In this document: positions 1-44,000 of the stretch, one piece after another
How the letters are laid out: each line of letters opens with the position of its first letter
Position numbering within the stretch: the stretch's first letter is position 1
Source of the DNA: Mycoplasma sp. (ex Biomphalaria glabrata)
GTDB taxonomy: Bacteria > Bacillota_I > Bacilli_A > Mycoplasmatales > GCF-1484045
Length of the DNA stretch: 64,000 nt
NCBI RefSeq assembly: GCF_001484045.1
Contig: NZ_CP013128.1
Coordinates: forward strand, 68,783-132,782
Direction of reading: 5' to 3'
Translations under genes and position numbers: made by a program
The notes under the pieces: model-generated
The model's database searches: none
What the model was told of the DNA's origin: nothing
The model's input: the letters and a program-made list of their open reading frames with translations, nothing else

Positions 1-3000
1 TTAATAGAAGCAGGAGGAAGTGTTTGTATATGCGCAAGCATGTTTGCTTTTAGGTCAGCAAGAGATAACATTGAAGTTCCTTGGGGACCAAATCAAGTAG
101 TTAAATTATTTAAATCATTACCGATTGCGTAACCATAATAATTATCAAAATAATTTTGCAAAATTGTGTCTATTGTGTTAGCTTTTTGTGTTTCAGATCA
201 AATCTTATAATTTAATAGTTCACCAAGAGGTTCAACTACATCACCATTTTTTGAAAATAAACTTTTCAAATAAGAAGAAACAGTTGAATAATCTTTACCA
301 TCATTTATAATGATATCACTTTGAAGTAATTGTGTTTTGAACAAATTATATAATTCATCAACTGTTCCTGGTAAATCATTTGTAAAATTTCCATCATGAT
401 TAAAAAATAGCGCAATATGTTTAGCCCCCGCAAAAACTTCTGTTCCTGATGAAAAATCAATTTCATATCCAAAATAGAAGTTTTTTAATAGCGACAAAAT
501 ATTAATTAAATCTAGCTTTGCCGATTCAATTTGTTTACCCATAAAGACATTTAAATCTCCATCAATAATCCCTTTTAAATATGTATAAATATGGTAAGCA
601 TTTTCTTCGCCATCTCGAGTTTCAGATTGAATAATTTTATCTATCGCATCATTACTAGATAAAGGTGTTTTCTCATCATTTTGAAAAAATCCATCTAGAA
701 TCGATTTTGGAACATCACTACTTCCGTAACCTCAATAACTAGTAATGATATCATTGATAATAGTATTTACATTATCTTCTAATTTATTGTTTTGTTCATC
801 AATGAAATCATTCATATCTTGGGATGCGATTTCATCTAAATTTGAAAATCACTTGTTTAGTTCATACTGTAATGGAAAATTATCGATTCCTTGTTTTGCA
901 ACTACATTCCCTTTAAAATTAGTAAATAAAGTGCTAATATCTAACTTTTCGCCATCTGTTACACCACTTAAAATTGTTTTTGTGATTAATGAGGTGGTTT
1001 CGGATATATATCCATAATAATTTCTTTGAATTTTATTTAAAACAGATGTTCAAATAGTTTGTAAGTTATCATTTTGATCTTTTATAAAATCTTTTATTGC
1101 TTGAGAATCTTCAGTTATTTGTCCAATAAAAGTTTTAACTTCTCATTGCCCGGCTATGTTTATATCATTTGTTAGAAAATTGTTTTTAAAATATTCCAAT
1201 AAAGTACTTGCATCTAATTCTTCATCCAAATTTTGTCCAGCTAAAAAATACTTGTATATATAATTATCAGTCATTGTTTCTGTTGCTGAGAAACCATATC
1301 AAGAATTGGAAATTAAATTAACAATTTTCTCAAAATCGTTATTTAATTGAATGCTTTGATCAAAAATAAAATTTTCAACATCGCCACCGTTAGCTGTTAA
1401 ATTATCTATAAATTGAGATGTAAGATATTTTTCAGGGTATCCAGGTAAGCGATTTTCTATCGAATCCTTAAATTTTTGCAACATTACCGATTTATCGATT
1501 TGCGAACCAAAAACGTGCCCTTCAAAAAGTGTTTTAGCAAAAAAATTATTTGACAAGGAAGATGAAGGATTATAACCAAAATAACCTCAAATTAAATTAG
1601 ATATTATTGTCCCAACAAAAGTATTAAAATGTGCCACTTGATCGTTTGCAAGTTCTTTCCCTTGGTCTATTATTTGTGATAAAAATGATGCTGTTGCATG
1701 CATTACTGGAAAATCAGTCTTTTTAGCAACAACTTCGGCTTTAAAATTAAGAACTAATTTTGCAATGTCAATCGATGTATTTGGAGAATGACCAGCTAGA
1801 ATAAACTTTAAAATAACATTATTAGATAGCGAATCTGAAAAAGCAAAACCATAATATTCTGAAATAATTGGAGTCAAAATTCTAGTAAATTCAAGAGTAA
1901 TATTACTATTTTGGTTATCTTTAAATTTTTGTATTTCTTGTTCGTTGATTGCTTCCAAAAGTGCTTGGATTTGATGTAATGAAGTAATTCCTGTCGGTAA
2001 ACTAGATTTATTAATTGTAGAAATAATATTTGATGATGATAATTCTAAATTTTCAGAATAGTTAGTTAGTAATTCGTCTATTTTACTAATTGTCCCAGTT
2101 TCTCCTGATTTCGAAATTCAACCATAGTAATCATTTTTTACTTGACTAACAATCGATTCAATCTTATTTGTCAATTGAGTTAATTGATCATCCTTTCATG
2201 TGACAAAATTTTCATTATCTTCTTTTTTAAATTGTTCTAAAAACGTTTTTGTTGCTCAAATTCCAGGAAAATCTGATTCACTTAATGGCGGATTATCTTT
2301 AAAATTTTGAATTAAAATCGTTGCACTCATTTGATCACCGATATTTAAATTTCCAAGTATATCATTAGTTAGTTTATTTTGAATTGAACTTTTAAATCCG
2401 TAATAATACTGCTCTAAAAAACTAACTATTGTTTCAAAATCGCTTTGTAGTGATGTATATTGTAGTTTTGCAAAATCTGAAAAATGTTGATTTCTAGAAA
2501 CAGAATATTTTGTTTCACTAGCAATTCACGTATAAAACGAATTAAAATAGTTGTAAAAAGATGCATCATGACTAAATTTTGCAATAAACTCGCTTCTCGT
2601 AATAATTTCAGAACTTCCTCTAAAAAATTGACTAACATCATATGTACTTTGTGTAGCTGAATCAGGATAACCTAAAAAATTCTGTTTCAAGAAAGTATCA
2701 TAAAAGTCATCGACAACTGCATCAAATGAAAGCGTATTTATACCTTTAAAATGTTCAAATTCCGTTGTGTAATCAAAGGTAAAATTTTCATTTTTAGCAT
2801 CTTTCCCAGCTCAACTTGAAACATCCATGCTATTTCATGTTCTTGCATTATACAAAAAGTTAAATACTGTTGTTTGATCGTATTTTGATTGTTTCATAAT
2901 TTCGATTCAAGAAGATATCAGTTTATCAACATTATCAAAATTGTTACGGTTTGTTTGGTCTATAAATAAATTTCAATACTCGTCAAATTGTGCATTTGTA

Positions 3001-5120
3001 TCTTTAAAACCATAATAAAATGTGCTAAATTCATTCTTGATTTTTTGATAGTATCAACTTAATTGATTTTTACCCCAGTCACGATATTCATTAAGTGTAT
3101 TTTCAATATCACTACTAGGTGCTGGATTTAAATATTTTTCTAAAAATCTCGTTGGAGTTCCTGATCTCAATTCATTTCTTCATTCATCAATCGCTTTTTG
3201 TAGTCCTTGTAGCGGATTTGTAACATCATTGTCGTCTAATACATAAAATAAACCATTACTTCCTGATAATATGTATGCTGGAAACATGTTTTTTAAATTA
3301 TTTTCGTTATATCAACCTCATTGATGACCGGTTGTAGTTTCCTCTATTGTAGAAATTCACTTCACATAAGTATCAGCAATAATTTTTTTAGCAGCATATT
3401 TTTGAATAGAAATAAAATTATTTATAGTTGTGAAATATTCTTGAATGTCAACACTCTCTGGTAAATTACTTTTTGCAGCACTCTCTAATTCTAAAATTGT
3501 CATTGGCGCAAAAGTATAATCTCCTTTTTTGCCAATTCATTCAGCTACTTTTTCAATAGATGTTTTTTGTTCAGTGGTTGCATCATTATTGTATACATCC
3601 GTCAAATCAATAAAAAATAAATTTTGAGTTAAAAAAGAAGAAAACTTATCTAAAATAGCTGCCTGAAAGGTTTGAAATCGCTCTTGTTTAAAATTATCTA
3701 AATTGTGACTATTAACAACCATCTCAACACCAGTTGTTACTACGTAATTTAATTTTCAATTAGTAAATTGATTTGATTTTTTAAATAGATATCCTTCAGT
3801 ATTTCAATTGTAATAAGATAAATTAGTAACGTCTTTATTTACAACATTAAAAGCGAAGTAATTTGTTCTGTTTGGTAGTTGAGAGGCTGAAAATGCATCG
3901 TCTTTTTTTATGCCATTTGGAATCATGTAGTATGTTTCATTGAAACCTCTAAAAAAATTCAAAGTAACATTAACTCCGCCATAAAAATCAAATTGTGGAT
4001 TGTCTTTTGGAAATTTTAAAACGTTCGAAATAGTTGCATTGTTATCGCTGTCTACAAAACCGATTTGCAATTTAGCATCATCTCCGCCATCATCACCTAA
4101 ATTCACAAAAACTAGACCATCTGTGGTTTTAAATAATCAATAACCGCGGGCATAAGGTAGTGGTTCAAAATCAACTTTAATCGGTTTAATATCTCCTTTA
4201 TCAAATAAATTTGTTCATCCTAATAATGGATATTCTTTCCCGCCTTTATTAAGGTACTCATGTTTCGGAGTGGCAAAACCATCACCAAAAACTAAATCCC
4301 TTGTTCCCGGATATCAACCTGGTTCAGATGAAGAAACATTTACATTATTAATTTCCGTTTTATGTCAAAATTGATTTAAAACGTCAAAGTTTGTCAATTC
4401 TCAAACGCGAAGATTAGCGTTATTATCATCAAGATAATCAAAAACACTTAAATAAACTTTCAAATTATCACCAGGAATAGTTGTTAAATGAATATTTCTA
4501 AAATTTGCAGTGCTGATCCCTCCTAGAGCATCATTAAGATTAAAAGTGGAAAAACTTCCACTTTTTATATTGGTAACACCAACAGTTCACTCACCAGTAC
4601 CATATTGATGATCAGTATTTCATAATCTAGAAAAAGTGATTAAATTTTCTCCAATAATATGAGGTTTCAATAAAACACTTTCGCTAACATCATAACCAAG
4701 ATTAATTTTTTCACTAATCAATGTTAAAACTTTTGTTTCTCGATTAATAGAATAAGATGTAAAAGTATTATAATGTGCTTTGCTTGTTGCAATGTTTCAA
4801 TAAGGAACAATTAAATAATCTTCATTTTGAACACTAGTATAACCAGCATTATCATAAGTGGTTTCTGATGGATTATCGAAATTACTTTTAACATGACCAA
4901 TAAATGGGTTGGTGTCATAATGCGTAATTGGATTTTGACCAGTTACATAATCATAACTACCTCCGGAAGATGTTGGACTCAATAAATTAGAATTAAATTT
5001 TTGAGAAAAATAATTTTCTTTTTCATCAGAAGTTGAAGGTGTATTTGCATTCCCGATCGGTTCTAAAGCGGAAGTTGTTATAGTCGATAATAGTGTTAAT
5101 AATTTTAATTTTTTATTCAT
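1..5120 (-). CDS. Giant YYGY-repeat surface protein A (C-terminus outside window)
   Basis: Function unknown; no named family recognised. One frame stays open from the ATG at 5120 to the left edge (at least 1706 codons) with TGA read as Trp. The first 20 residues have a KK start and a hydrophobic stretch ending in ALEPIG, which looks like an export signal without a lipobox Cys. The N-terminal region carries the family blocks NPFIGHV, LIVPYW, an FGDGFATPKHEY-like block, YYMIPNGIKKDD and FFIDLTDVYNN. A repeat array follows. YYGY-type motifs lie near + positions 3010, 2669, 2398, 2115, 1851, 1578, 1288, 1010, 728, 469 and 134, so modules are about 90-110 aa. A GAGGA ribosome site lies 5 nt before the ATG. 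By comparison with B, D, E and F, the missing part should hold a C-terminal domain and membrane anchor. Inferred role: exported, membrane-tethered surface protein. Confidence 0.88.
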
Positions 5121-5287: not shown

Positions 5288-8200
5288 CTACTTATCTAAA
5301 TTTTTTGATAATTTGGCATTTTTTATTTTTTTAATGCGTTTAATTGATAAGAAGATAATTGGTCCGATAATAGTTATAGTTGATAATGCTACTAAAACTT
5401 TGACTCAAATTGGCGTTGAAGAAATGTTGTTTATTGTTTTGGCCAATGGTGCTTTAAATAATTTTTTTTCTTCTGGTTGATTTGCTAAACGGTTAATTAC
5501 TTCATCTATTGTTTGAGTTGTTTTATCAAATTGTGGACTCATAATACTAATATTAGAACGAACTTCATGTCCAGTAATTAAATCATTACCCATTCCAATT
5601 TGAATAAATAAATCATTAACAACTTTTGTTGTTTGATGAAAAATGTTAACACTTTTTAATGTATTGATTCCTCATTCGACCGGTAATGGTAATGTGCTTG
5701 AACCGTCATAATCTAATGATAAATTAGAAAAACTAAACATTAATTCATCATAATTAATTACTGATACTGTGCTTTCAGAACTATCGTTGTTTGTAAAACT
5801 TTTATTAATAGTGATTTTTTGAGCCAAACTATAAGCTGGAGTTCCTGAAGAAATATCTGCTACTGCAAACAACATTTGGTCATAATTAGATTTACCATCA
5901 GATTTCATCATTTTATATGTAAATTGTTGCGTTCCTTTTGTTATAACAAGAGTCGGACCATATTCTTTATCATCATCTTTAGATGTTGCTGTAAATTTAA
6001 TAGAATCAATATCCCCATTTAATATATATTCTCCCGTTTGTATATTAACGATAGAAGCCTTCATTTGAGAATTTGTTAAAAGTGACGGGGTAGATGGTTC
6101 AAAAAATAATTGTAACGGCATTCCGTATTCTGCAAAAAACATAAAATTATGTTTTGTAGTAACATCATTTCAATCTGCACCTTTGTCTCCTTGGAATGAA
6201 GAAAATCAATTCGATGTTATATCGTTTAAATCAGCTAATGAAGTTTGTTCCCCTGCTTGATTTAAGAACGCAGCAAGTGCTTGTTTTGCTAAGTTACTAT
6301 CTTGATAATTAAAACGACTATTAGGTTTTGCTCCTCATGTAGTATCCCCTTCTTCTTCACTTAATAAATTAAAAATTTCTTCTTGGCGAGTAAATCCTGG
6401 TTTAGTTAGTGAAGCATCTTTATCAGACATTTCAGTTTGTTCACTTTCAAAATTTTTTAATTCGTCAGTGAAAAATTTTCAAGCATCATAGCTCAATCGG
6501 TACAACGCATCAATGCTCGGAATTGCCATTTTTGTGAAAGTTTGTTCATCAAGCAATGATATTGCTAGTTCGACATCAATTTCAAATTTATCTGGATTAA
6601 TTTTTGTACCAGGGAAATTATTAAATTTTAAAGGTGAACCATTAAATGAAGTAAAATACCCTTTTCAAGAATTAGCATATTTATTTGCCAAATCTTCCAA
6701 GTAGTTACGGAAAATATTTGTTTGCTCAGTTTGAAAATTAGCTAAATTGGTTCTATAAATGGAAATTAAATTAGCTTCTCATGTTGGGGTTGTTGATGTA
6801 TTACGAGATCCACTTAAAAATAATTTTAGAGCTTCTTTATCAAATACTTTAGAAGTTACTCCTTCTCAATTTTGAATAAGGACACCATTTTCAATGGCTT
6901 CATCTCCACCGAGAGATTTGTAAGACAATTTATTACCATTTACATCATTCGTAAAACCGCGAAATGATGTTTGATATTCAGTAATAATTTGATCTAAATC
7001 CGCTTCATAAGCATTTTTCTCTTTATTTATAAAACTATCGTTACCTACCGTCAATCGATCAGTAAGCATTCCAATTGCGCTATTTCGTAGCCATTTCCCG
7101 TTAACCGCACGATTAGGATCTTGATAGTGCCCAACATCGTCTTTTAAAGTTTTAACTGACTCATTTAATGACCAGTTAAAGTTATTATTTAATGTCTTCG
7201 TTAATCCTGGTAAAAACGTTTTATTAATTTCATCTTGTGATGTGTAACCGTAATATGCATCTTGATAATCACTAATTAATGAAAATATATCGTAAGTTAA
7301 TTCATCTACTTGATATAATGCGAATTCAAAAGCTGGTGATTCAATATTTTGAGTAAAATATGGTTCTAAAATATTTTTAAAAGTTTTTCCAGATTGCAAA
7401 TCACTAGCATGGTTTTCATCTAATGAACTAAAAATTTTATAAGTTGATGTATCTTTACTTGATCAATCATTATAAATTCAAGATGATGTGTCTCATATAG
7501 CATCAGGATTTTGACTATTTTGTCATGTTAAATATATTTTAGCATTAGTTGAAATCTCTAAATTAGTGTTATAACCAAAATAATTATTCTTTAAAAAATC
7601 ATTAATTAAATTATCGTTAATATTAGCAATTAATGCATTCATTTGCTCGTTTTTAAAATTGGTTAATCCTGATTCGCCATATTTAGTTTGAATATGGTGT
7701 GCTTCTCAAATGTTAGTTTTACTATCTTTGACAATTGAATTAGTAATTTTATCACGCACTTCTATAAAATTTCAACCACGATTGAAAATTTGACTTGTTG
7801 TTTCTAGCTCAAGTTCTGAAGATATTTGATAACCCATATATCACTGGTTGTAATAATCTACAATTGATTGAAGAACTCTTAACATTTCACTATCTTGAAA
7901 GGTTTTGAAATCTATTAGATTCTTAGAACTTAACCCAAAATCACTAACATATTCACTTAGTAACTTTTGCGAATCATCAAATGCTTTTTGTCGCGCAGTG
8001 TTAAGATCTCTTGTTGTTATAATTTCATTTCAATTGTTATTAGCATCATTGTAAGTAACGAAAAATCAATTTCCTGTGTAACCCGTGAAACCTAAGTAAT
8101 TATCTCTTCACAATTGATTAATTTCACTTATTTTTTGGGTTGCCATTTTAAAATCGCGACCCAATATTGTAGTTTCATCACTCGTTCCTAACTCTTTTAA

Positions 8201-11200
8201 AAATTCTTGAAGCGAAGAATTAATTTTTTTCAACGGCAATGTTTTAATATAATTATTTAAATTTGTTAAAATATCTTCTAATTTAATCATTCCGTTATTT
8301 GGTAAACCAAATCATAATTTTAATTTTAATAGGTCATCACCGTTTGAAAATCCTGAGTAATTATCAAAAAAGTCTTGAGCTAGAGAATTTAAAATGCTTG
8401 TCAATTTTGGTTCAGCTCAATTTTTGTAACTTTTTAATTCATTCTGCGCCTCATTTTCTCCGCTAGAATTACTATATAAACCACGCAAAAAATCTGCAAC
8501 AGTATTGCGCTTTTCTTTGTCTTTAACTATTTCGCTATGCATAATTTGAGTTGTAAATAATGACACAAATTCCTCAAAATCCGTTGGTAATCCATCAGTT
8601 TGAGTATCTTTTTCATAAAAGAAGTAAGAAATTTTCATTGAACCCGCAAATACTTCACTCGGGGCGGTAAATGATGTCATTTCAAACCCAAAATAATATT
8701 TATTTAGCAATTGAAAAATTGCCAGCAAGTCGTTTCTCAATTGCTCTGTTTGCCCTGTTACAAATGATTTTAGTTCGACAGTCAATTGTTCTTCATTTAA
8801 GAATGAAAAAACACTATATATTCCTTTATCACTATCACATTTTTCTCGAATTATATCCATTGTTTCTTCAATTGTTAAATATTCCTGACGATCTTCAGAA
8901 AAAAATAAACTATAAAATGATTCCGGTATAGACACTTCTTTATAGCCTCAATTATTTTCTTTTACGGAATTTATAATTTTTGTAACATCGTCTTCAAATT
9001 TTTTGTTTTGTTCTTGTTCGAATTGATCAATTTTAGAAATGTCTCTATTAATATAAAGTTCAACTTCATATAATCTAGGAAATCAATTTCCACCAGATTG
9101 GATGACATTATCAATAAATTTTGCTAATAAACCATCCAAATCAATATTTTCTAAATTAGTTCCATTAGGTAAACCTAATAATATATAATTATTTGCTCAA
9201 AAATTTGTTTCACTAATATAACCTAAATAATATTTCTTAATTTTGGTGATAAGATCATTAAACATTGATTTAAGATCCTGTTTTTGGAAGTCAATAAGTG
9301 TAGTTACATGTTCACCTGATTGAGTTAAATTATCGAAAAATGCTTTAACATGATATCTTCCTCCGATATATTCTGCCATCGATCAACCGATATCTGTAAT
9401 TTCTTCTGATATGTTTTCTAACATATATTTTGACAATACTACTGGATCTAATGCTTGACCTCACGTTCACCCCATCATAGCATAAACCCCAACTTCATTT
9501 CATTCATCAACAAGTACTCCTTCATTCATTAGAATCCTAGGGTTAAAACCATAAAATCAAGGGCTAATTCAAGAAAAAAGTGTTGTCATACGTTCAATAG
9601 TTTTATTCAATTGATCATTAAATAAAATTTTTGCAGAGGCATCCTTATCAAGGGTTTTTAAAAAATTATTAATTTTTCATGGTTGCGGTAGTTCGACATC
9701 CCCATTTTGATAATTCTCCTTGTATTTTTCGATAATATATTTAGAATCTAAATTTTCATTTTCTTGACGTCCATTAAAAATAAATCGTAAAAATTCATCA
9801 CTTTCAATTACAGATTGCGATGGAGCAAAGCCAAAATAATTTTGTTTAAATAAATCTAAAATCTTATCAAGAGAAGTGTTAAATAAATTTTCTTGATCTA
9901 TAAAGAATCATCGAATGTCCTCGGAATCTATACCTTCAACCAATGTTTTTAATTCTCATAATCCATTTAAAGTTTTAGGTAACTTCTCCTTAGAAATTGA
10001 TGAGAAAATATTTTCAGCTGTAAGCTCGTCCCCTGAATTAAAGTTAAAAAGTAATTTACCCAGTAATGCTGGAAGAGCTTCTTCTAATTCTGACGAATTT
10101 GGAAATCCATAATAATAAAACCCTTTTGTACCATCAATAATTTTTTGTAAATCACTAATAATTTGATCTTTTTGATCTTTTTTTCATTCTTCTATTGAAG
10201 ATGTATGCGTGTTTAAATTATATTTTATAGCGTAAGCATTGCCAGCAGAATTTTGAAAATAAAAATCTCTAATAGTATTGGCATCTAACTTAGTTTCTTC
10301 AGCAGAACCACCAAATAGTGATCGTATAAAGTCATTGTTAATAGTGCTTTTGTATCCGAAATAGTAATCTTCAACCGAATTGACAATTGATACAATATTA
10401 GCTCAGAACATATCATATTGCTTTTGCATCATTTCAACTAACGTATCTCCAACAGCTTGAACAGTACTATCTATATAGAATTTTCCTTCGAATTTTCCTT
10501 CGGATTTTTCTAAACAAAGTTTCCCAAAGTTGTTGTTAAAAAATTCAAAAGTCGCTTTCCCATTAACAAAATTTTTAATCATTCATTCACGGTTGTAAAC
10601 AGGTTCGCCACTAGAATAATCTATAAATGAATCTATGTTAATTGACCCAATTTCGGCACCATATCCGAGGTAATTGTGTTGCAAAAACCATTCAAAAATA
10701 TTCAACATTTGGTTAAATCAATCTAATACAAAATCCTTATAAAGATTTAATTTACTTGTATATTCGAAAATATACTGTTCTAAGGTCGCATCCTTACCAG
10801 CAATTTTACTTGCCGGAATGTTTTCTCAAACTTCTGCTTTTGATAATGATTCTAATACAGTCATATTTTCATACGATGCTTCACTCATCATATTGCTTCA
10901 TTTATTTAAAAGCTCTTTTGAATCAGTAATAAGAAGTCCGTTGTTTAAAAATTTTTCTAAAATTAAATTATTCTCATATGGATCATCAACACCATAATAG
11001 AAGCCTTTGAATTCATCCAAAATTCTATTAGAATACCACTCAAATTGTTTAGTACCTAAAGTTTTATATTCATTATAAGTATTTTCAATATCACTACCCG
11101 ATACAGGTTCTAAATATGCATCTAATAAGCTTTGAAATCTAATCGGTGTATTAGTTGCTAGCTTATTTTGAAATTCCGATACTAATTTTTGTAAACCTTC

Positions 11201-13123
11201 TTTAGGGTTTTCAAGATCGGTATCTGTTTTGTCATATATTAAACCTTTTTCGTTATCTATAACGTATGCTTGAAACATATTAGTTAAATTATTTTCGTTA
11301 TATCAACCTCATTGATGACCTGTTCCATTTGCATAACCTTCAATAGATATAATTCATTTATTATAAGTTAATTGCAATAAGTTTTTGGTTAAGGTTGCTT
11401 GAACTACTGCAAAGTCTTTGATTATCTTATCAATATCAGCATCAGTTACATTCATCGATAAATTTCTTTCAACAGCATCTGTCATTTCTTCAATAGTCAT
11501 CGGAGCAAATGAAAAATCACCATCTTTACCAAGTCATTTTGCTAAATTTTCGATGCTTGCTTTTTGTTCTTCAGTCGCTAAATTAGCGTAAAATGATGTC
11601 AAGTCTACAAAATATAAATTTTTTGATAAAAATGACGTTAGTTTGTCAATTAATGATTCTTGTTGAGTACGTCAATGCTTTTGCGAAGCAATACTAGCTG
11701 CGTAATCTGTGTCGACAGTTATCAAATCTGAACCAAATGATGCAATATAATTTAGTTTAGAATTTTTAAAACTATCACTATTCTTAAAAATATTATTACC
11801 AGCATTATAATCATAAGAATTTAAGTTTGAAATAACTCCATTAGCGTAATTAAAACCAAAGTAACGAGTTCCTTGTGATAAAGATTTTATATCCCCGCTA
11901 TCATCCTTTACTCCGTTTGGGATTAAATAATAAGTACTTTTATAACCTTTCACCATAGTAAAAGTAATTGATGTCCCATCATAAAAATCATACTTGCCAT
12001 TACCTTTAGTTCCTGTTAGAAATGAAAATTTTGCCGATGGAGTTGTTTTATTGTTACTATCAATAGTTCCTAATTTTAAACTAGCATTCCCTTTTCCATC
12101 ATCACCTAAATTAACTGTTACTATCCCTTCATCTGATGGGAACAATCAATATCCCTTAGAATTACCATATTCGGCGTAATCAAAATCAATTGGTTTAATT
12201 TGGTTTTCTTCTAATAAATTTGTTCAACCAAATAAAGGTTTATTTTTATCTTCTTTGGTTGAATATTTGTGTTTTGGCGTAGCATAACCATTTCCAAAAA
12301 TAAGATCAGTTGTCTCAGAAAGAATTCCTGCCTTTCCTGAGATATCCAATTCGTTTATTGATGATAAAGCATGACTAGTATTTCTAGGGTTAAAATTACT
12401 TATTTCAGATACTCGCAATTTTCCTAAATTTAATTCGTTATATTCATATAACGCTAAATAATAAGTAGGACTAGATAGATCTTCATTAGTCATAATGTAA
12501 AGATTACGGAAATTAATTGTACTTTCTCCGATAGAAGCAGCAAGAGAATATGTCGTAAAATCCCCTGTTTTAATGTTTGTCACCCCAACACTTCATTCTC
12601 CAAGACCGTATGGATTTTCAATATTTCAATCTCTAAAAAATGTTACAAGTTCCTCGCCAACTAATTGCGGAGGAAGAATTACTTTATTTGTAACATCATA
12701 ACCTAATTTTGTATTACTACTTAAAGTAGATAATTGTTGAGTATTTGAATCAATTGAGTAAGCAGCAAAAGAATTGTAATAAGGTCGTTTCGTTGCAGTA
12801 CTTCAATAAGGAACAACTACATAGCTATCGTTTTGAATAGTGTTAAAACTTCCATTATCGAAAATTTTTGCTTTGGTGTTGTCAAACGTAGATGGAACAT
12901 ACCCCGTGAAAGGTGAGGAAATTGTTTCTGTTGTTGGTGTTTCTGAAGAAATTAAATCGTATCCTCCACCAACTCATTCTTTTAAATTGCCATTTTTTGA
13001 TTGCAATTGTGTATTTTCTTGTGATTTCTCGTTAATTTGAGTTTGAGCCAAATCGCTAATTGGTTCAGCTGCTGTTGTTGCTACTGTCGAAAAAACTGTT
13101 ATTAATTTAATCTTCTTATTCAT
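5288..13123 (-). CDS. Giant YYGY-repeat surface protein B
   Basis: A 2611-aa protein of unknown function in the local paralogous family. It starts at ATG 13123 with AGGAA 5 nt upstream. The signal-like start contains AAEPISDLA. The N-terminal region has FGNGYATPKHKY, YYLIPNGVKDD and FPAY/FQAYVIDNEKGL-type blocks. YYGY/YFGY modules follow from about 11.0 kb down to about 6.7 kb (for example DYYFGYKS near 10360 and YYGYTSQDEI near 7245). The C-terminal domain begins FFAEYGMPLQLFFEP (start near 6142). A single hydrophobic helix (about residues 2573-2594) precedes a Lys-rich tail and a TAG stop. Export with a C-terminal membrane anchor is inferred. Frame continuity was read directly over several stretches lacking long standard-code ORFs and depends on TGA as Trp. 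Confidence 0.9.
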
Positions 13124-13288: not shown

Positions 13289-16200
13289 CTATCTTTTAGT
13301 GGTTTTATTTTTAACTTGTGATTTTGTAGAGGGTTTTGATTTTGTATTTGACTTCCTGATTCTTTTTTTAACTTGTGATTTTATAGAGGATTTTGATTTT
13401 GTATTTAATTTTTTGATTCCTTTTTTAACTTGTGATTTTGTAGAGGATTTTGATTTTGTATTTGATTTTTTGATTCCTTTTTTAACTTGTGATTTTGATG
13501 CTTTTTTAAAATTTTTAGGTGCCGATACTTTTTTAAAGTTTTTAATTTTTACGATTTTATTTTTTTTATATTTGCGAATTAAAACGTAAACTAAAGGTAT
13601 TCCAATAAAAGTTACAAATAAAACTATGGTGATAGGTATAACCCAAATTGGAAAACTAGATTGTGTATTGGTAATTGGATTGATTGGTGAAAGATTATTT
13701 GGCAACTTACTAATTAATTCATTAATTGAATAATTTTCATTGTTAAATTCTGAGTCAGAAATATTAACATTGCTACAAATTTTTTCTTTACTAATTTGAT
13801 CGTAACCAACCATTATTTTAATAACAGAATCGTAAATAAATTTGGTAGCACTATGATATGCAAAAATATTTTCAATTTTATTTTCATTTTTAACATTCTT
13901 AACAAATTTATCCATAAAATTGGGTGAGATATTTGAAAAACTAAAATTTTCTAAATCATATTCGATGACCGCTAAAGAACTTTCAATACTATTTTCGGTT
14001 TCAGAATTTTTCATAATTGTAATTTTTTGAGCTTTAGTATAATTAGGAGTTCCGTTTGTAAGATCGGCAACTGCAAATAAAACTTGTTTAAATTGTCCAC
14101 CTTCAGTTGAAGGAATTAATTTATAAATAAATTGTTGCTTATCTTTTGTGATTACTATAGTTTCATCATAAACAATATTGCCATCTTGTGAACTCGGCAA
14201 AAATGAAATATTATCGATCTTCCCTTTCAAAAGATATTCATTTGTATTAATATCCAAAATACTAGTTAACAGTTGTTTAGGTTTTAATGGGTCATAAAAT
14301 AATTGCAAAGGGATGCCGTATTGCGCAAGAAAAGTAAAACTGTGATTTAAATTAATGTTTCCCCAATCAGCTCCATCCCCACCAGCCGTTGATGAATATC
14401 AATTTAGATCTATATTATTTAACCCTAACAAGTTTGGGTTAAATTGAGAAAAAAAATTCTTTAATGTGCTTTTTACAATTGAATCATCAGTGAAATTTCC
14501 ACGATAAGTAGGATTTGTTGATCAAGATTTATTAATTTTTTCATTTTGTAAAAAATTGAAAATATCCAATTTTCGAACAAATCCCTGATCAATTATTCCA
14601 ACATCTTGCTTTAATATCTCATATTGTTCTTTTTCGTAATTTAAGAGATTATTCATATATTTTTCTCAAACGTCGTAACTTAATCGATATTTTGCAGTAG
14701 GAATAGGAGTTTTTTGCTGATTATATGTTTCCTGATCAAAAATAATTGCCGCTTTATCTATATCAAATGTTGGTTTATTGCTTGTAAAAGTTCAAAATGG
14801 CAAGTTAGGGAAATTTAAAGATGTCCCGTTATTGGTTGCGACGTACCCTAAAGAGAATTTGTAATACTGATCGGATACCATTAGTAGAAAATTACGAAAT
14901 ATTTGCGTTTGTTCATTCTTAAATAAACTTATATTATTACGATAATTTTTAATAATATCAGCTTCTCATTTTATGTTTGGAATCCCACTATTACGATATT
15001 GCTTTACAAATGTTTTGAAAGAATCTTTATCAAAGATAGATGAACTAACATCAATCGCTTTAGAAATAAAAACTCCATTAGTTAAAGCGTCATCATCCCC
15101 AAGAGTTTTGTATGTTAATTTATTTCCATTAACGTCATTCATAAAACCGCGAAAAACACTTTTATACTCAGAAATTATTTTTGTCAAGTCGTTATCAAAA
15201 GCAATTTTTTCTTTTTGACTAAAATTATCCGTTTCACTAGTAAGTTTTGCTGTAATTGTAACTAATGCGTTATTATATAATCATCGACCATTACTTAAGC
15301 GATTATCATCTTGATAATAACCATCGTCCAATTTTAAAGTGTTAATTGTATCATTCAAATTTCAATCATATAAGTCATTAGATATCTTAACTAAACCAGG
15401 TAAATATGTTGAATTAACTACTACTGGGTTCGAATAACCTAAGTAAGCTTCTCGATATCTAGATATTAGTTTAGTTATATCAATAGATAAAGCTTGTAAT
15501 TGAAAATTAATAAATTGTTGCCCTATGGAATCACTAGTAATAAGAATATACTCATCAATTGCGTTTTTAAACGTTCTCCCTTTTAATAAATTATTATTAT
15601 GTTCTTCATCTATTGATGTGAAAATTTTGTATGTTGAAGTATTTTGATTTCCTCAATCACCGTCTATTCAATTGGTTATATTTCATATTGCATCTAGTTT
15701 ATTGCTATTTTGTCAACTCAAAATTTTTTGAATATTTAACGGAATAGCCCCTCCAAAATTGTAACCAAAATAGTTATTCTTGAATAAACCACCAATTAGA
15801 TTATCATTAATATCTAACACAAGAGCATTCATTTGTTCATCGCGAAAAGCATTTTGTTTGGTATTAGAACCATAATTCGAATCAATGTAGTTAAATTCTC
15901 ACAATGAAGTGTTTTTATTTTTAATGATTGAACTAGTAATTTTGTTAAAGACTTCATCATATTCTCAGTTATAAGATTTTTGATTTAATTTTTCTAACCC
16001 ATTGCCTAATGATATTTGATAACCCATATATCATTGGTTATAAAAATCTACAATCGGTTGCAATAGTTTTGATATTTCACTTAACTGATAATTTTTAAAA
16101 TTTATTAAATTTTGAAATTCGTTTTTGTAACTTTGTAAGGTTTCTTTTAATGTTTGTGAATTATTAGTTACTAATTTTTTAATTTGATTAACATCCTCAC

Positions 16201-17149
16201 GAGTTGTCGGATTTTTTCAATTATCAATTCGTTCATCATATGTTAAATTAAATCATTCTCCAGCATAATTTTTAACACCATAGTAATTGTTTCGTCACAT
16301 TTGGTTAATGTTTTCAACATCTTTAATAATCAATATTAATTCTCTTCCTAAAATAGTATTGTTATTTGGTGTTTCATCAATAATTCCTAACTCCGTAGCA
16401 AAATTATCCACAGAATTTTTAATTAAACTAGCATTAACATTAGATAGTGCGTAGTTAAGCATATTAATTTTTAATTCATTAAAATCTATGACCTCATTAT
16501 CTTTTACACCAAATCATAATGATAATTTAGCTAAATCTTCACTTGATGCATAACCATAGTAATTATCATAATACGCTTTAGCAATTGGTCCAATTTTATA
16601 TTGCAGCTGTGAAATTGATCAATTTTTATATTTTTCTAAATCTTCACGTGGAGTTAAATTTTGACCATCATTAATGTATAAACTAGTAAGATAGTCGCTT
16701 ATATATTGGTATTCTTCGCCTTCTGCTACTAATAAATCCAACTTTAATTCTGTTTTTAAATTTTCAAATATTTCATCAACTGATGAATTAAGTTGATTTG
16801 TCATATTTTTCGATTTATAAAAAAAAGAGGCAATTTTTTTAGCACCGGTAAAACTTTCGCGTGATAATGTAAAGTCATACTCATAACCAAAATAATACTT
16901 TTGCAACATCGTTAGAACATCAGTAATTTTACTTTTTATTGATTCACTTGTATTTGGTGATAAATTTCCATCATTTTTAGAAGTATTAACTACCAATTTT
17001 TCTTTTATTATCGAATTTTCAGACAATGATTGATGTTGAAAATCATTTTCGTCTTTTTGGATTGGAACATTCAATAGGTTCTCAATAGGGTCTAATGCTG
17101 TTGTAGTTAGTGTTGAAAATAATGCAAATAATTTCATTTTTCCACTCAT
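13289..17149 (-). CDS. Short paralogue C of the giant family, with Lys-rich repeat tail
   Basis: A 1286-aa protein. The start is ATG 17149 with GGAGG 5 nt upstream; the TTG one codon earlier is less likely. After a signal-like segment (LFALFSTLTTTALDPIE) it enters the YYGY module region almost at once (KYYFGYEYDF near residue 97). It therefore lacks the roughly 600-aa N-terminal region of A, B, D, E and F. The module array and the C-terminal domain (MQLFYDPLKPKQL, residue 948 onward) are retained. A helix around residues 1168-1191 (IWVIPITIVLFVTFIG) leads to a very basic cytoplasmic tail. The tail contains tandem 19-aa repeats (KSQVKKGIKKSNTKSKSST type) not seen in its paralogues. This looks like an internally deleted family member. 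Function unknown; surface-anchored by inference. Confidence 0.88.
13306..13500 (-). repeat. 57-bp tandem repeat, about 3.4 copies, coding
   Basis: The string aacttgtg recurs at 13313, 13370, 13427 and 13484, an exact 57-bp period. Each unit encodes 19 residues rich in Lys and Ser in the tail of gene C. The period is a multiple of three, so copy-number change would alter tail length without a frameshift. Confidence 0.9.
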
Positions 17150-17231
17150 CAAAACCTCCGTTTTTTAAATTTATAATTTAGATAAAATTAGTAAATTATG
17201 CTGCAAAATATCAATTTTTCCCTATAAGATT

Positions 17232-17270: not shown

Positions 17271-17295
17271 TAAAAAAATAACGCTAAGCGTTATT
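17271..17295 (-). terminator. Intrinsic terminator overlapping the stop of giant gene D
   Basis: AATAACGCT and AGCGTTATT form a 9-bp inverted repeat around one base, followed by a T-run on the minus strand. The arms are identical to those of the terminator at 5252-5277. The first arm overlaps the TAA stop of gene D (17291-17293). Confidence 0.75.
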
Positions 17296-20200
17296 TTTTA
17301 TTTTTGAATAAAGATTTAGTAATTCCTTTTACTTTTGATTTAGTTATTCTTTTAGGATTTTTTACTTTAATATTTTCGGTAGAAAATCTTTTAACCGTTT
17401 TATTTGTAGCAGTTCTTAATCTTAACTTACGAATAATTAAATAAGCAAGTGGGCCAACAACTGTTAAAACACCCACAACAATAATAAGTGGCATAATTCA
17501 ATTTAAAGGTCCAGATCCAGTTTCGATTGGAGGGGTTGGAGATGGTAAACGACTAATTACTTCATCTATTGATAACACCTTGTTTCTATTATCTGGGGAC
17601 ATAATTGCAATATTAGAGCGTAATTTTCTTTCACTTTCTAAATCGCTACCGATACCCATTTGAATATAAATATCACGAACAGCTTTAGTTGTTTGATGCA
17701 AAGTTGCCAAACTTTCTATCTTATTCACACCTGATTCAGATTGAGCTTGTAAATCAAAGGTGCCATCATAATTTGGAGAAAAATTAGATAAACTAAAAGT
17801 TGTTTTGTCATATGTTATATTAGCCAACGAACTTTCAATAGTTGTTGGAGTGTCTAGGTTTTTGGCTATTGTGATTTTTTGTGCTAAATCATAAACTGGT
17901 GTTCCTGTTGAAATATCCGCTATAGTAAATAATAATTCATCAAATGGGTTTCTATTGTTAGAGGAAATTATGCGATAGTTAAATTCTTGATTACCTCTTT
18001 TTATAATTAAGGTAGGTCCATAAATTTGATTTCCTTCTTGTGATGTTGGTAAAAATTCAATTGAATCAATTTCACCATTAATTAAATGTTGCCCTGAATT
18101 TAATTCAATTAGCGAAACACGCATTTTTCCAAGTGATTCACCTGGTTCATAAACAATTTGTAATGGCATTCCGTATTGTGCAAAGAATAAAAATGTATGA
18201 CGAGCATTAGGATTATTTCAATCTGTACTATCAGGACCTTCAGTCAATGAATATCAATTTGACGTAATGCTATTTAAATCTGCAATCGATACTGGGTTCC
18301 CTGTCTTATTTAAAAATTGAACTAACGCTTCTTTTGAAGCATTAAGATGACTATAATCTCCACGATAAGTTGGTTGTGTTTTTCAATTTTTATTGCTTTC
18401 AGTTTCGTTTAAGAAATCGAATATTTCTGTTTGGCGAATAAAGGGGATTTCATTTGAAGCAAGATCTTGATTAATCAATTCAATTTGCTCATTAGCAAAA
18501 TTTTGAACATTGTCATCATATTTTTTATATATTTCAGAACTCAAACGATATAGGGCTTTTGAAGCATTTGGAGTTTCCATGTTATTATAAGTTTCTTGAT
18601 CTAGAATACCTATCGTTAAATTAAAGTCGATTTGCGTACCTGTCGGCCCCATTGTTCATCCCGGTAAATTTGGATATTGTAATGGTGTTCCATTAAATGT
18701 TGCAAAGTAACCTTTTGAAACTGCATTATATTTAGCCTGAACAGATTCCAAGGAGTTTCGTAAAATTTGCTCTTGCTCAGCTTTAAAATTATCGCGATCG
18801 TTGTCATATCCACTTAAAATATTAGCCTCTCATATTGTATTTGTAATTGATGTATTGCGCATTCCATGAAGATAATTTTCGAAAGCTTGTTTATTAAATA
18901 TTTCAGTTGTTACATCGATTGCTTTAGATACAAATACTCCATTAGCAATAGCATCATCTCCACCTAATGTTTTATAGCTTAATTTATTTCCATTAACATC
19001 ATTCATAAAACCACGGAAAATTTTTGTATAGTCCGATATGATTCTTGCAATTTCTGCATCATATGCTGCTTTTTCTTTTGCTACAAAATTATCCGGTTCT
19101 TGATCAATTTTTTTAGTTATTGAATCAACTGCAGTATTATGTAATCATTTCCCATTCGTGTGGCGATTAGCATCTTGATAATTTCCAGGATCACTTATTA
19201 AAATTTTTATTGCATCCTCAATACTTCAATTGTAATTACCATTAGAAGTTGGCACTAAACCTGGTAAATAATTAGAATTTATTACTTCAGCTGAAGTGTA
19301 CCCAAAGTATGCTGTTTGATATCTTGAAATTAATGAAGTTAATTCTATTGACAATGCTTGCAATTGAAAGTTACTAAACTCTGCACTAATTGTTCCTATT
19401 TTCTTTGTGATATAGTCGTTAAAAACATCTTTAAAACTTTTTCCTTGTTGTAAATTAGAATGATGATTCGCATCTATAGAATTAAAAATTTTATAAGTTG
19501 AAGCTGTTGTGCTAGCTCATGCATCAGATCCTCAATATGTAGTATCTCATATTGCATTAATTTCTGTGCTATTTTGTCAATCTAATATCATTTGAATATT
19601 ACTTGGGATGCCAGCTCCGAAATTATATCCAAAGTAATTATTTTTTAAGAAATTGTTAATAAAATCATCATTTATCGAAGTAATTAATGAATTCATTTGT
19701 TCTGAACGAAAACTATTTTGTTTAACGTTTCCATCATATATTGAACGAATATATTGCGCTTCTCAATTTTTAGTTTCGCTATCTTTTATAATGGAATTAC
19801 TAATTTTAGCAAATACATCAGCATAATTTCAACCAGTCGATAATGATGGATCTGTTTTTTCTAATAAATACGTTTCAGTTGTATTATATCCCATATATCA
19901 TTGATTATAGAAATCAACAATCGGTTGCAATAGTTTTGACATTTCCGATTCTTGATAAGCTCTAAAATCTAATAAATTTTGGTCGCCTATTCCGAAATCT
20001 GCAGCAAAATCCTTAATGAACTGAGATTTTTCAAGAGCCACTGTTCTTAGTGAAGCGAAACCGGCATGAGTTGTTATATCCTTTCAGTTATTTTCTTGTT
20101 CGTTAAAAGTTTCCTTGAATCAATTCCCTGTATATCCAGTTAAACCGTAGTAATTGTTACGTCACACACGACTAATGGCATTAATATCATCCATTGCAGC

Positions 20201-23200
20201 TTTAAAGTCTCTACCAAGAATCGTTCCATCTATTTCAGAATCCTGTCCTGTTCCTAATATTGTAGATAAATCACCAATCGCTGTACTAATTAATTTGACG
20301 TCTAATGTTTGAATATAAGACATAGCAACCACTAATATTTCATCAATTGTTAAAAATTTTTCTTGCGTACCAAATCAATTTTTTAAAGTTAACAAATCGT
20401 CACCAGTTGCATATCCATAATAATTATTAACATAATTTTCTGCAATCGATCTAAAAACTTCACCAAACTTTTCTTTCTGATAATTAATAAAATTTTCTAC
20501 AAAACCTCCGCCGTCTAACATTGAATACAATTTAGCCATTACAGAAGTATAATTAGGTGATTCCTTACCATCATATGCAGAATCGTCTCAAGTGCTTCCT
20601 TGAATATTTTGAAGTCAAGTTGCTAGCATTTCATCTATTGAAGTAGGAAGTTCTAATGTTGTACCGCCAAAAGAATTAAAATCGTTTTTGAAAAACGCAA
20701 AAATGTATCTCGCTCCTTCGAAAACATCAGTGTCTTCATCATTCGGTTTTGAAATTTCTCAATTTTGAGTAAAATTAAAACCTCAGTAATACTTAATTAA
20801 ATAACTAAAAATATTTTCAATTCTCGAACGAACTTGCGATATTCCCCCATCGATATATTGTTTTAAATCCTCTTTAAATTTCCCCGTATTTAATTTATTA
20901 TAAATGTTATCTCCTTTAAATAAGGAATTAGATGCATCCACAGTACTACTTCACGCATCTTCAAACGATTTAGGGTTTAATACTGCTTCTCAATTTGAAC
21001 TATAGTCTTCTGGAAAGTTAAATCACAGTTCTATGTATTCTTTACCAATATTATCCATAACTCTTCAATTATATTTAATAATTTCCTGCATTATTTGAGC
21101 AATAGTATCGATACCAGCATTATTTTGAATATCTATAAACATTTGAATTTCAGTAGTTAAATTAAGATAATTATCTAAAATTTCAGCTATTTTGAACATA
21201 GGTATTATTCCATTATTTCCACCTAACTCTGCCATATTCTTTTTAAAACGTTCAAATGATGAAACTGATTCTAATGCAGAACCAGACGGAAGACCTGTAA
21301 GTAAAAGAATACTTAGATTACCATTAGGCAATTTGATGTCATTAATTGAATATCCATATCAATATTGCTGAATTTTTGAGAAAAATGCATCTGAGTTTCA
21401 AATTTCTTGAAGTTTTTTCTCTTGAAAATCAGAAATAGATGTGAATATTTTTTCATCGTTAATAGTGTTTTTTAGATAAGGAGCAACATTTCAAATTCCT
21501 TCTAGCGTCGGGATGTCAGTTGGAAAATTTTTCAAAAAGTTATCTATAACAACTTTTGCTGATCAATCGTTAAGTTCATGATAAATTCCATATCTAATAA
21601 GAAAATTACTATTTAAGTCGCCTTCATTACTCATATCAAAGCCATAATAATTTAATTTCAATTTATTTATTGCATAATTGAAATCCGCTAATAATTGGTT
21701 ATATTGATCATTAACATAATCATCTAAGTCTGAACTATTTAAAAGCTGAGTTAAAAACCTCCCTATTTGAACTTTTTTTGGGTAACCCGCTTTACCCTCT
21801 TCAAAACCATTTTTAAAATAAGATGACACTTCTGTTATATCTATCTTTGTACCTGGTTTATGACCATATAAAATTACTTGCACTATAGCACCATTTTTAA
21901 CTGCCTCACCTTGAGGTAAATATCCAAAATATCCTTTTTCAATTTTGTTAATAATTTTTTCTAGACCTAGTTGAATTTGTTTAACTTGTTGAGAATTAAA
22001 TAAATCAATATCTTTTTGACCTATATCATTAACATACGATTTTAATCCAAACAATCCAGACAAGTCCTTAGGTAATTGATCTATTTTAAATGTAGCAATA
22101 ATAGCGTCCGCATCTAATTCTACTCCTAAAGGATAGTATCCTAACAAATAATCTATTTTTGAAGCTGAAGAATCGTCACTTGGTAAAATTCAGCCATAGT
22201 AACGATCTTTAACTGAATCAATTATATTTTGGATGAATGGTTTTAATTGATTTTTTTGATCATCTATTCATGCCTTTGTGTCTGGATTTTGCGGATCTTT
22301 AAATTTTTCAATTAATGATTTAGTTCCATAACGTCCTAAAAGTAAATTAAGTTCTATTGGTTGATCTGTTTGAAAATAGGCATCGGCTAAAACATTGGAA
22401 TCTAAAGAAGAGTCAACAGCTAATGTTGGAAGCATATATTTGGTAATATTATTTCCAGCTAAACTAGCATATCCGTAATAATTATTTTCAATTAAATGAA
22501 TAAATTCCGCAAAATCTGCAATTAATGAAGTTTTCTGACTAGTTACTCAATCATTAAATTGTGCTGTTCTTTGTATATCGTGTCTTCCAGACCCAGGTGT
22601 TCATGAATAAAATTTACTAAAATGAGTGTACACTGTTCCAGCGTTATGAGGAAACGATACAATAAAATCAGATTTTTTCATAATTAAAACTGGATCTCCT
22701 GAAAAATACATAGATACATCTAATTTTTCAGAAGTAGATTGATCGCCATAACCTAAATATTCTTTTTGTAAGAAGTTATCATATAAATCATCAATAACGG
22801 CATTAAAAGAATTAATGTTAATATTTTTAAAATCTAAAAATTCATTCGTGTACTCAAAAGCAATTTGTTCTACAGCAGCATCCTTACCTACAAGTTTGTC
22901 TATAGATAAATTTGCCCAAATTTTAGAATTAACAAAAAAATTAACAACTGATTTTCCATTAAAAGCGGCATCATTCATTACTACTTTTCATTTCTCAACC
23001 ATTTGGTCAATCGAACCAAATAACTCGTGGCTAGTGTCTTGTAAAAAATAATTTCAAATAATATCATTTGTTTGATTTAAATCTGAAAAACCATAATAAA
23101 AAGTGTTAAATTCAGAATTAATTTTTTGTCTAAATCAATCTAATTGATTTTTATTAAATGATTTAAAATCAATTAAAACTTGTTCAATTATGCCTCCAGG

Positions 23201-25189
23201 AGTTGGATTAATGTATTGGTCTAAGAAATTAGTAAACGAAATTGGTGTTCCAGCTGCTAATTTTTTCTGAAATTCAGTTATTAATCTTTGTAATCCGACC
23301 CTTGGGTTTTTTAAATTTGTATCAGTATTATCAAATATCAAACCATTATCTGCATCAATAATATACGCCGGAAACATTAAAAATAAATTTTGTGGATTAT
23401 ATCAACCTCATTGATGACCAGTTCCATCTGTCGTTTCTTCGATTGTAACTGTTCAATTATTGTATGCATTTTTTAATGAGTTTTGGATTTGTAAAGATTG
23501 AACGTCAATGAAATCGTTCATAATTTGAGTTAATTCAAGATCTGTGATTGCTGTTGAAAAATTAGCAATTAATGCTGTTTTTATCTCATCTATAGTCATC
23601 GGAGAAAATGTATAGTTTCCACTTTTTCCTAATCACTGAGCCATTTTTTCAACTGCCAATTTTTGAGAATTGTTTGCAGAGTTGTTATATACATCCGTTA
23701 AATCGACAAAATATAGGTTTTGTGATAAAAACGAAGTTAATTTGTCAATTAGTGAATTTGCTTGTGTACGGAAATGTCTTTGAGTTATTGTAGATGATGC
23801 TAAACGAATATCCGATGTTAAAATATCTGATCCTGTGGAAGTTATATAATTAATACGAGAACTTGAAAAGTTTTGACTATCTTTAAATAAACCATTTGCA
23901 TCATTATAGTTATAAGAATTTAAGTTAGTAATATTAGGGTTCTCTATATTAAAAGCAAAATATTGTGAACTAACTGGTAATGATGAGATATCTGGAGTAT
24001 CAGATTTAACTCCACTAGGAACCAAATAATAAATATCATCATCTCCTTTAAAAAAGGAAAACGTAATAGCAGTTCCTTGATAAAAATCAAAATTTCCATC
24101 CGTTGTGGCAAAAGAAAAATTTGCTGTAGGTTTTGCTTTATTATTAGAATCAATAATTCCAAGTTGTAAATTAGCTTTACCTCCTAAATCGTTACCAAGA
24201 TTTGCGAACATTAAACCTTTGTCTGTTTGAAACAATCAATAACCACGAGATTTTGTGTATGGTGTATAGTCAACTGTAATAGGTTTAACTCCATCAGCTT
24301 GAAGCAAATTATTTCAACCAAACAGTGGTTGTCCTTGCCCGGCGTCTACGTCATAGCTATGTTTTGGAACAGCAAAACCATTTCCAAACATTACATCGTA
24401 TGTATTAGAATAATTAACAATGTAACTATTATGTGTAGAAGTTTCATAACTTTTAGTTCTTGGATTAAAATTATTTAATTTTAAAACCGTAATTTTACCT
24501 TCGGTAGTATACTCATAAGTTGCTAAGTAATAATTTGGCGTTAAAGAATCTGGATCATCTACCATTACATAAATATTTCTGAAATTTGCTGTACTATTTC
24601 CTATTGCATTAGTTAATAAATAACTTGTATAATCACCTGTTTTAATATTAGTAACTCCAACAGTTCATTCGCCCTTCCCGTATGGGTTTTTTGAATCTAC
24701 ATCTCGAAAAAAAGTTACTAGATCTTCGCCAACTAATTGCGGAGGCAATATAATTTTATTTTCTACATCATAACCTAAATTAACTTTGCTATTTATCGCA
24801 GTAACTTGTTTAGTAATAGAATCGATAGCATATGAAGCAAACGAATCAAAATGAGGTCTTTTTGTGGATGCCGCTCAAAAAGGTACAACTAAATAATTGT
24901 AATTTTTGATAGAAGTGAATGAACCATTATCAAAACTCGCTTCCCCATCAAATGTTGTAGGTACATAACCAACAAATGGTGAAGTGTTAGTATTTGTTAT
25001 CTGATTTTCACCTTCAACTTTAAAGTAACTTCCTCCACTAGAACTCTTAAGAAAATTCTCAAATGTATTCAATTTAGAATCATTAGAACCATCTTTCATA
25101 GTTTGTGCGTTCGCTAGATCACTTATCGGCTCTAATCCAACTGTTGTCAATGTTGAAACAAGTGTTAATAATTTAATTTTTTTATTCAA
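17291..25189 (-). CDS. Giant YYGY-repeat surface protein D
   Basis: About 2632 aa, function unknown. TTG at 25189 is preferred because its context (GGTAAATATT then TTG) aligns with the TTG start of gene F. An in-frame ATG at 25201 would add four residues, but its AAGGA is too close. The signal-like start has LVSTLTTVGLEPISDLA. Blocks in order: NTSPFVGYVP, LVVPFW, FGNGFAVPKHSY, YYLVPSGVKSD, YFVDLTDVYNN and FPAYIIDADNGLIFDN. YYGY-type modules follow near + 23091, 22749, 22470, 22190, 21925, 21640, 21350, 20780, 20412, 20145, 19890, 19628 and 19300. A C-terminal domain (GMPLQIVYEP near 18169), a helix at about residues 2566-2586 and a Lys/Arg-rich tail end the protein. I read 18661-20640 codon by codon and found no TAA or TAG. 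Confidence 0.9.
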
Positions 25190-25201
25190 AATATTTACCA
25201 T

Positions 25202-31500: not shown

Positions 31501-31849
31501 CAAAATGAGGTTTTTTAATCACTGCAGTTCAATATGGTACAATCAAGTAATTTTTATTTTGAATAGACGTAAAAGTTCCGTTTTCATAAGCAATATTACT
31601 TTTATCATCAAAATTGTTTGGGACATAACCAATAAAAGGATTATCATTAACGTTTGATATGTAATCTTCTCCAGATATTGAGTCGTACCCTCCACCCACT
31701 TGTTCTGTTAATTTTGATTTATTATTTCTCGTGTTTTGTTTTTTATTTTCAGTATTAATATTTTGCACTTCTGTTAATTGACTAACAGGCTCGATAGCCG
31801 TTGTTGTAATTGTTGAAAAAAGCGTTAATAATTTTAATTTTTTATTCAA
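25505..31849 (-). CDS. Giant YYGY-repeat surface protein E
   Basis: A 2114-aa family member. It probably starts with TTG at 31849, after GGGTGG with a 4-nt gap; no ATG fits the conserved start LKLLTLFSTITTTAIEPVS. The N-terminal region has NPFIGYVP, LIVPYW, FGNGYAVPKHGY, YYLFPSGIDGN, YFVDLTSFYA and FPAYVLDSTNGLTYDN. The YYGY modules include KYYYGYDYDFSG (near 28850), which lies in a block about 93% identical to one in gene F. The C-terminal domain begins MFFGQYGMPLQVFYDP (26302). A helix at about residues 2077-2098 is followed by IRKKKASKNTHVFKK and the stop. Compared with B, D and F, the module array is shorter. Function unknown; surface-exposed membrane-anchored protein inferred. Confidence 0.9.
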
Positions 31850-31924
31850 GATACCACCCGATTTTCTTATATATTTATTTTGATTCTTACATAAAAAACT
31901 ATTAATATATGAATCCGTATAATT

Positions 31925-31933
31925 ATTATATCA
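31925..31933 (-). promoter_or_regulatory. Extended -10 promoter of giant gene E
   Basis: The minus strand reads TGATATAAT, 75 nt before the TTG start. AAATTTGAAT precedes it, as in gene D. Confidence 0.65.
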
Positions 31934-31994
31934 ATTCAAATTTTTAAAATTTTTTTTAAGAAAAAAAATAGTATGTAAAGTGTTTTTTACTAAA

Positions 31995-43700: not shown

Positions 43701-44000
43701 TACAACTAGGTAATCTTTGTTTTTAATTGTTGTAAAAGAACCATTATCCAAACTAGATTCATTATTAAATGTAGTGGGAACATAACCTGTAGATCATGAT
43801 GGATTATCGCCAGTGATTGGTTTTTCTTTTTCTAATTCCACATAGAAATCGTTGTTTGTTCCTTGAAGAGAACTGTCAATTAGATTATTTTCATCCAAAC
43901 CATCTTTTGTAATTTGTGCATTTGCTAAATCACTAACCGGTTCCAATCCAGCCGTTGTTAATGTTGAAAAAATTGTTAATAATTTAATTTTATTATTCAA
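34800..44000 (-). CDS. Giant YYGY-repeat surface protein F (3066 aa)
   Basis: The longest family member. It starts with TTG 44000 behind GGGAGG (9-nt gap); no ATG fits LLTIFSTLTTAGLEPVSDLA. N-terminal blocks: FGNGFATTKRDY (about residue 270), YYLIPSGVKSD (about 385), FFVDLTEVYN (about 493) and an FPTYIIGENGL-like block (about 600). Around twenty YYGY/YFGY/YYGW modules follow from + 41931 down to about 36700, about 90-115 aa apart. An acidic Phe-rich segment (SDDFDPKFNFERFF) occurs near 40120. The C-terminal domain begins MFFGQYGLPLEVFYDP (35600). The helix is residues 3029-3051, then RKKNLLKNKKSKHQ and the stop. The 5' third is closest to gene D and the rest to gene E. Function unknown; exported, membrane-anchored giant surface protein inferred. 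Confidence 0.9.
37860..38210 (-). repeat. Near-identical module shared by giant genes E and F
   Basis: This 109-residue segment (37878-38207) differs from the corresponding one in gene E (28580-28906) at 8 residues by direct comparison. Both include KYYYGYDYDFSG and SDLxKNDGKDYTGVSTYLKS. Other family copies differ at roughly half the positions. This points to recent duplication or gene conversion. Confidence 0.8.

Follow-up and report, generated by a model that had tools for sequence, protein, structure and literature searches.

The most likely account of this locus, which we would hold at a probability of about 0.6, is that it encodes a tandem family of giant surface fibres, anchored in the membrane at their C-termini and acting as adhesin stalks in an orphan lineage of mollicutes. 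The repeat domain is new, while giant surface proteins with repeat stalks are already a known kind; indeed, many mollicutes have giant surface proteins peculiar to their lineage, and the family is for that reason less of a surprise. What it adds is a well-populated repeat domain, confidently modelled and unseen by the profile libraries, that takes up about a tenth of a reduced genome, and it offers a test case both for how wall-less bacteria use a new part to build long fibres on their surface and for the origin and expansion of a lineage-specific repeat.

The window, by which we mean the whole stretch of 64,000 nucleotides analysed, covers positions 68783-132782 of the single-contig genome (647,830 bases, 97.5% complete) of a snail-associated Mycoplasma. 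Its minus strand is nearly filled from 3 to 44000 by six giant frames when read under code 4, in which TGA is Trp (Table 1), and the six are paralogues with about 40-43% identity across their shared parts. Reading the window with table 11 shattered these frames, and a ciliate code was likewise rejected, the long frames appearing only under code 4. Across the genome, 15 module-bearing ORFs are spread along some 87 kb (25.9-112.8 kb), and the coding sequence of the family comes to about 69 kb, roughly 11% of the total. A search for a 16S gene in this genome found none, and its closest GyrB match, from Spiroplasma, is about 49% identical, with Erysipelotrichaceae at a similar level. Gene A is a single open frame whose 3' end is cut by a scaffold gap: a run of N lies immediately upstream of window base 1, window positions 1-165 are 100% identical to G000:C1:65218-65382 of the same genome, and the latter is the start of an ORF (G000:62301-65378) that carries the matching C-terminal half and a transmembrane (TM) segment. 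Most simply, gene A would continue into that ORF, the contigs having been mis-scaffolded. Two further paralogous proteins of 582 and 585 aa, 30% identical, are encoded at window positions 32719-34467 and 44968-46725; they have a signal-like N-terminus and a C-terminal hydrophobic segment, carry no modules and match no Pfam family at the thresholds used, and they may be partners of the giants. A 240-aa ORF (G000:C1:20676-21398), some 4.5 kb away from the array, has a start that looks, by eye, like the N-terminus of a tyrosine recombinase.

The repeat was first seen through its motif, [YF][YFW]GY, which the first-pass annotation had placed at eleven positions in gene A. All eleven, from about + position 3010 down to 134, are there in a relaxed form ([YFWI][YFWLM]G[YFWVAL], at aa 702, 815, 906, 998, 1089, 1177/1180, 1274, 1368, 1462, 1549 and 1661), but the strict form fits only five (aa 1180, 1368, 1462, 1549 and 1661), the others reading YYGF, YYGW, FLGY or WYGF; neighbouring motifs usually lie 87-97 aa apart, two of the intervals being 112-113 aa. 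Over all family ORFs the strict motif occurs 63 times against 1.05 expected from composition shuffles (maximum 6, n=300), and [YFW][YFW]G[YFW] occurs 107 times against 3.2 expected from shuffles of the same kind. A first profile, for which 13 segments of the paralogue g26, encoded outside the window, were the only seed, detects the gene A modules with E-values down to 1e-20, the best of 750 shuffled proteins reaching 2.5e-3. After iteration the profile finds 132 modules at E<1e-3 in the 15 ORFs, a count that describes the family on which the profile was built and for which the shuffles (best 3.5e-3, none passing) are the control; one of the 132, at aa 1707-1795 of gene A, lies across the scaffold gap on the other contig. 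With both profiles set against shuffles, the modules align with one another at high significance. A module is about 89 aa long, with the consensus LSNNNISKYLLEGYDEGTELSLSELIDTFKNNLETLTTNLPGKYALKSYLNSITSDETDLNNFKNDQKNQLENDIQKIINEIKNNYYGY, and even the degenerate FLGY module of gene A has a counterpart with the same motif at the equal place, 113 aa past FYYGF, in D, E, G, g26 and g45. The gene that had been credited with around twenty modules is gene G, where we count 18; more generally, the first pass was right on the number of modules and on most of the layout, but not on the genetic code, the head, the anchor domains and the assembly break.

Table 1. Features of the giant genes in the window (window coordinates; module counts are those at E<1e-3).
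Feature	Position	Strand	Details
Gene A	3..5120	-	code 4, 1706 aa in window; signal-like N-terminus, head, 10 modules; 3' cut
Gene A head domain	3651..5003	-	N-terminal, beta-rich, probable beta-propeller; the domain is conserved between A, B, D, E and G
Gene A module aa 619-705, FYYGF	3006..3266	-	profile E 6e-12
Gene A degenerate module aa 711-818, FLGY	2667..2990	-	profile E 0.9
Gene A module aa 824-909, YYGF	2394..2651	-	profile E 4e-10
Gene A module aa 912-1001, YYGW	2118..2387	-	profile E 6e-21; in AlphaFold2 model
Gene A module aa 1009-1092, YYGF	1845..2096	-	profile E 7e-13; in AlphaFold2 model
Gene A module aa 1098-1183, YFGY	1572..1829	-	profile E 1e-13; in AlphaFold2 model
Gene A module aa 1189-1277, WYGF	1290..1556	-	profile E 4e-19
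Gene A module aa 1283-1371, YYGY	1008..1274	-	profile E 2e-21
Gene A module aa 1374-1465, YWGY	726..1001	-	profile E 1e-20
Gene A module aa 1466-1552, YFGY	465..725	-	profile E 6e-14
Gene A module aa 1564-1664, YYGY	129..431	-	profile E 2e-9
Gene B	5288..13123	-	2611 aa, with a head, 14 modules, a C-terminal domain, a TM at 5339-5413 and a basic tail
Gene C	13289..17152	-	1287 aa: signal, without head, 5 modules, C-terminal domain
Gene C TM	13568..13660	-	followed by long Lys-rich tail
Gene D	17291..25201	-	2636 aa, with a head, 14 modules, a C-terminal domain and a TM at 17423-17515
Gene E	25505..31939	-	2144-aa ORF with a head, 8 modules, a C-terminal domain and a TM at 25544-25633; translation probably begins further downstream than the listed TTG
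Gene G (gene F of the first-pass annotation)	34800..44000	-	3066 aa, with a head, 18 modules, a C-terminal domain and a TM at 34836-34934

From an alignment of 15 three-module spans, every one of them taken from the window, AlphaFold2 predicts the run of three adjacent modules at aa 912-1183 of gene A to be all alpha, with a pLDDT of 90.9 and a pTM of 0.83, and this bears out the original idea of a helical repeat. The first module has four helices (5-10, 22-31, 43-51 and 59-86) and a similar set follows twice; the last helix, 28 residues long, carries the YYGY-type motif at its C-terminus and FxxxQxxxL inside it, so that the separate helices once assigned to FLxxQxxxL and to the motif give way to a single continuous one. 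An elongated stalk is a plausible shape for a chain of such units. That the repeat is a new domain, as had been proposed, is supported, no sequence family in Pfam, NCBIfam or the PDB spanning the modules and no known repeat HMM in the first two covering them convincingly. Pfam gave nothing near cut-off for the full proteins A and B and, over 72 single modules, a best E of 0.0013 in one member only, with none above the curated cut-off; NCBIfam gave nothing near cut-off for the full proteins C, D, E and G. In PHROGs, 73 residues of g26 weakly match the unnamed phrog_32020 (E=1.2e-5), a match that is not common to the modules, and gene G found nothing there below 0.1. The PDB held no module match by sequence (best E 0.18), and Foldseek with the three-module model returned a best E of 0.85 against the PDB (0 of 87 at E<=0.001) and of 0.2 against viral models. 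It is possible, and we put this forward tentatively, that the module is an unseen all-helical fold without a solved analogue, which would have arisen in one orphan mollicute lineage and expanded there into rigid, membrane-anchored stalks.

The long forms are built to one plan. At the N-terminus there is a hydrophobic segment, which in all but C is followed by a head of about 400 aa; after the modules come a C-terminal region, itself conserved, then a single TM helix and a tail, which in most of them is rich in Lys/Arg. They contain few or no cysteines. AlphaFold2 models the gene D copy of the head as beta-rich with a mean pLDDT of 58, and with this low-confidence model Foldseek gave 76 matches at E<=0.001, at a TM of about 0.3, mostly to beta-propellers among the matches listed and including glycan- and protein-binding ones; on this model, the head is probably a beta-propeller. 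We propose that the N-terminal signal would export the chain, that 8-18 packed helical modules would keep the propeller-like head away from the membrane, and that the C-terminal domain, TM helix and tail would together form the anchor. The head would probably bind glycans or a protein on the host surface, and the protein would thereby tether the wall-less cell to its host; stalk length would have changed through duplication of modules and of multi-module blocks. We infer adhesion from this architecture and by analogy with the legs of Mycoplasma mobile and the repetitive proteins of the Hepatoplasmataceae.

Short forms also exist outside the window (g45, g49 and g58, in the region G000:C1:45075-62076), and these proteins of about 1130 aa consist of a signal and modules without head or TM; they end before any TM, a hairpin and T-run come next, and from their sequences they look secreted. 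Directly downstream of g58 is a 565-aa protein with a hydrophobic N-terminus and a C-terminal TM, which may be the partner of g58, and TM remnants of this protein are found after g49 and fused in g67. These seemingly secreted forms without a TM, the several paralogue lengths and the large coding investment would also suit proteins that stand in for the wall, as a structural coat or in cell-cell cohesion, and have no specific host ligand; we regard this as quite unlikely, since the N-terminal head, probably a propeller, is conserved in at least six paralogues, which suggests ligand binding.

The best module matches between paralogues are mostly at equivalent positions, that is, the module types are collinear, and therefore the array is older than the gene duplication. 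Blocks have also been duplicated internally, at 1004-1272 and 1465-1733 of g26 and at 811-1078 and 1304-1584 of G. Between long forms dN/dS is 0.32-0.44, and they are under purifying selection; between close short-form pairs it is 0.46-0.72. In the comparison of E with G, a patch at aa 940-1330 of E has a dS of 0.52 against 1.12-1.13 in both flanks, which suggests gene conversion, and broken copies of the family are found at g53/g54, g65 and g67. Such a patch, together with paralogues in tandem, the higher dN/dS of the short forms and the broken copies, is in keeping with variable surface antigens or immune decoys that are diversified by recombination between paralogues. We think that explanation unlikely, both from the purifying selection on the long forms and because there is no sign of phase variation: upstream of the genes there is no long homopolymer or dinucleotide switch, the genes run in a single direction, and most long genes have their own promoter-like box (TATAAT-like, 60-100 nt upstream). 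Hairpins followed by T-runs lie between several of the family genes.

The adhesin stalks that we favour are, at the sensitivity used and as judged by sequence searches, an orphan family. Gene B has no relative in the other 319 of 320 genomes of the order, a set that may exclude M. mobile; the C-terminal profile finds its own genome only, among 148 relatives and 392 genomes of the phylum, and the head profile its own genome only, among 395 genomes of the class. For the C-terminal region no relatives appeared in genome contigs or viral contigs, and for gene D nothing was found in plasmids. With the module profile, 33 other genomes gave weak matches to single modules, which we take as chance, since the 19 loci rechecked showed no array and a best E of 0.002. 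All of these searches begin with a heuristic first look, which distant relatives may escape.

How, then, does the family compare with systems already described? Gli349 and Gli521 of M. mobile are also giant mollicute surface proteins, and the likeness in size range (349 and 521 kDa there, up to 3066 aa here) and in surface placement raises the thought that ours might serve a gliding machine as its legs or cranks. This is improbable in our view: the motor of M. mobile uses the extra F1-like MMOB1660/1670, whereas in our nearly complete genome no duplicated F1 motor genes were found, and the idea is weakened because there is one strong F1 alpha/beta pair, a third ATP-synt_ab match being a sub-threshold stretch of 28 residues. 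Two further points tell against it: a search with gene B across 320 genomes of the order detected relatives in its own genome only, and at least six long paralogues stand in tandem. Gli349 has repeats of about 100 aa with the motif YxxxxxGF, which occurs 11 times in the 23,151 aa of our family against a shuffle mean of 4.3 and maximum of 11, and is therefore not the signature of this repeat. The legs of M. mobile measure about 50 nm, and the distal foot of the long leg binds sialylated oligosaccharides (PMC6935860).

The Hepatoplasmataceae, symbionts of isopods, have giant repetitive beta-sandwich ORFs that have been proposed as host adhesins (PMC10928387). As in our family, these repetitive ORFs are large and belong to a mollicute genome of reduced size; the difference is in the predicted fold, beta-sandwich in their repeats and all-alpha in the YYGY-type modules. 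A further mollicute adhesin with a repetitive domain is ScARP/SARP1 of Spiroplasma, whose sarpin repeats are of about 40 aa and whose layout of signal, repeats and C-terminal TM is like that of the long forms described here. It is far smaller and without a comparable head. This repetitive-domain adhesin is reported to act in the entry of insect cells (PMC3485318).
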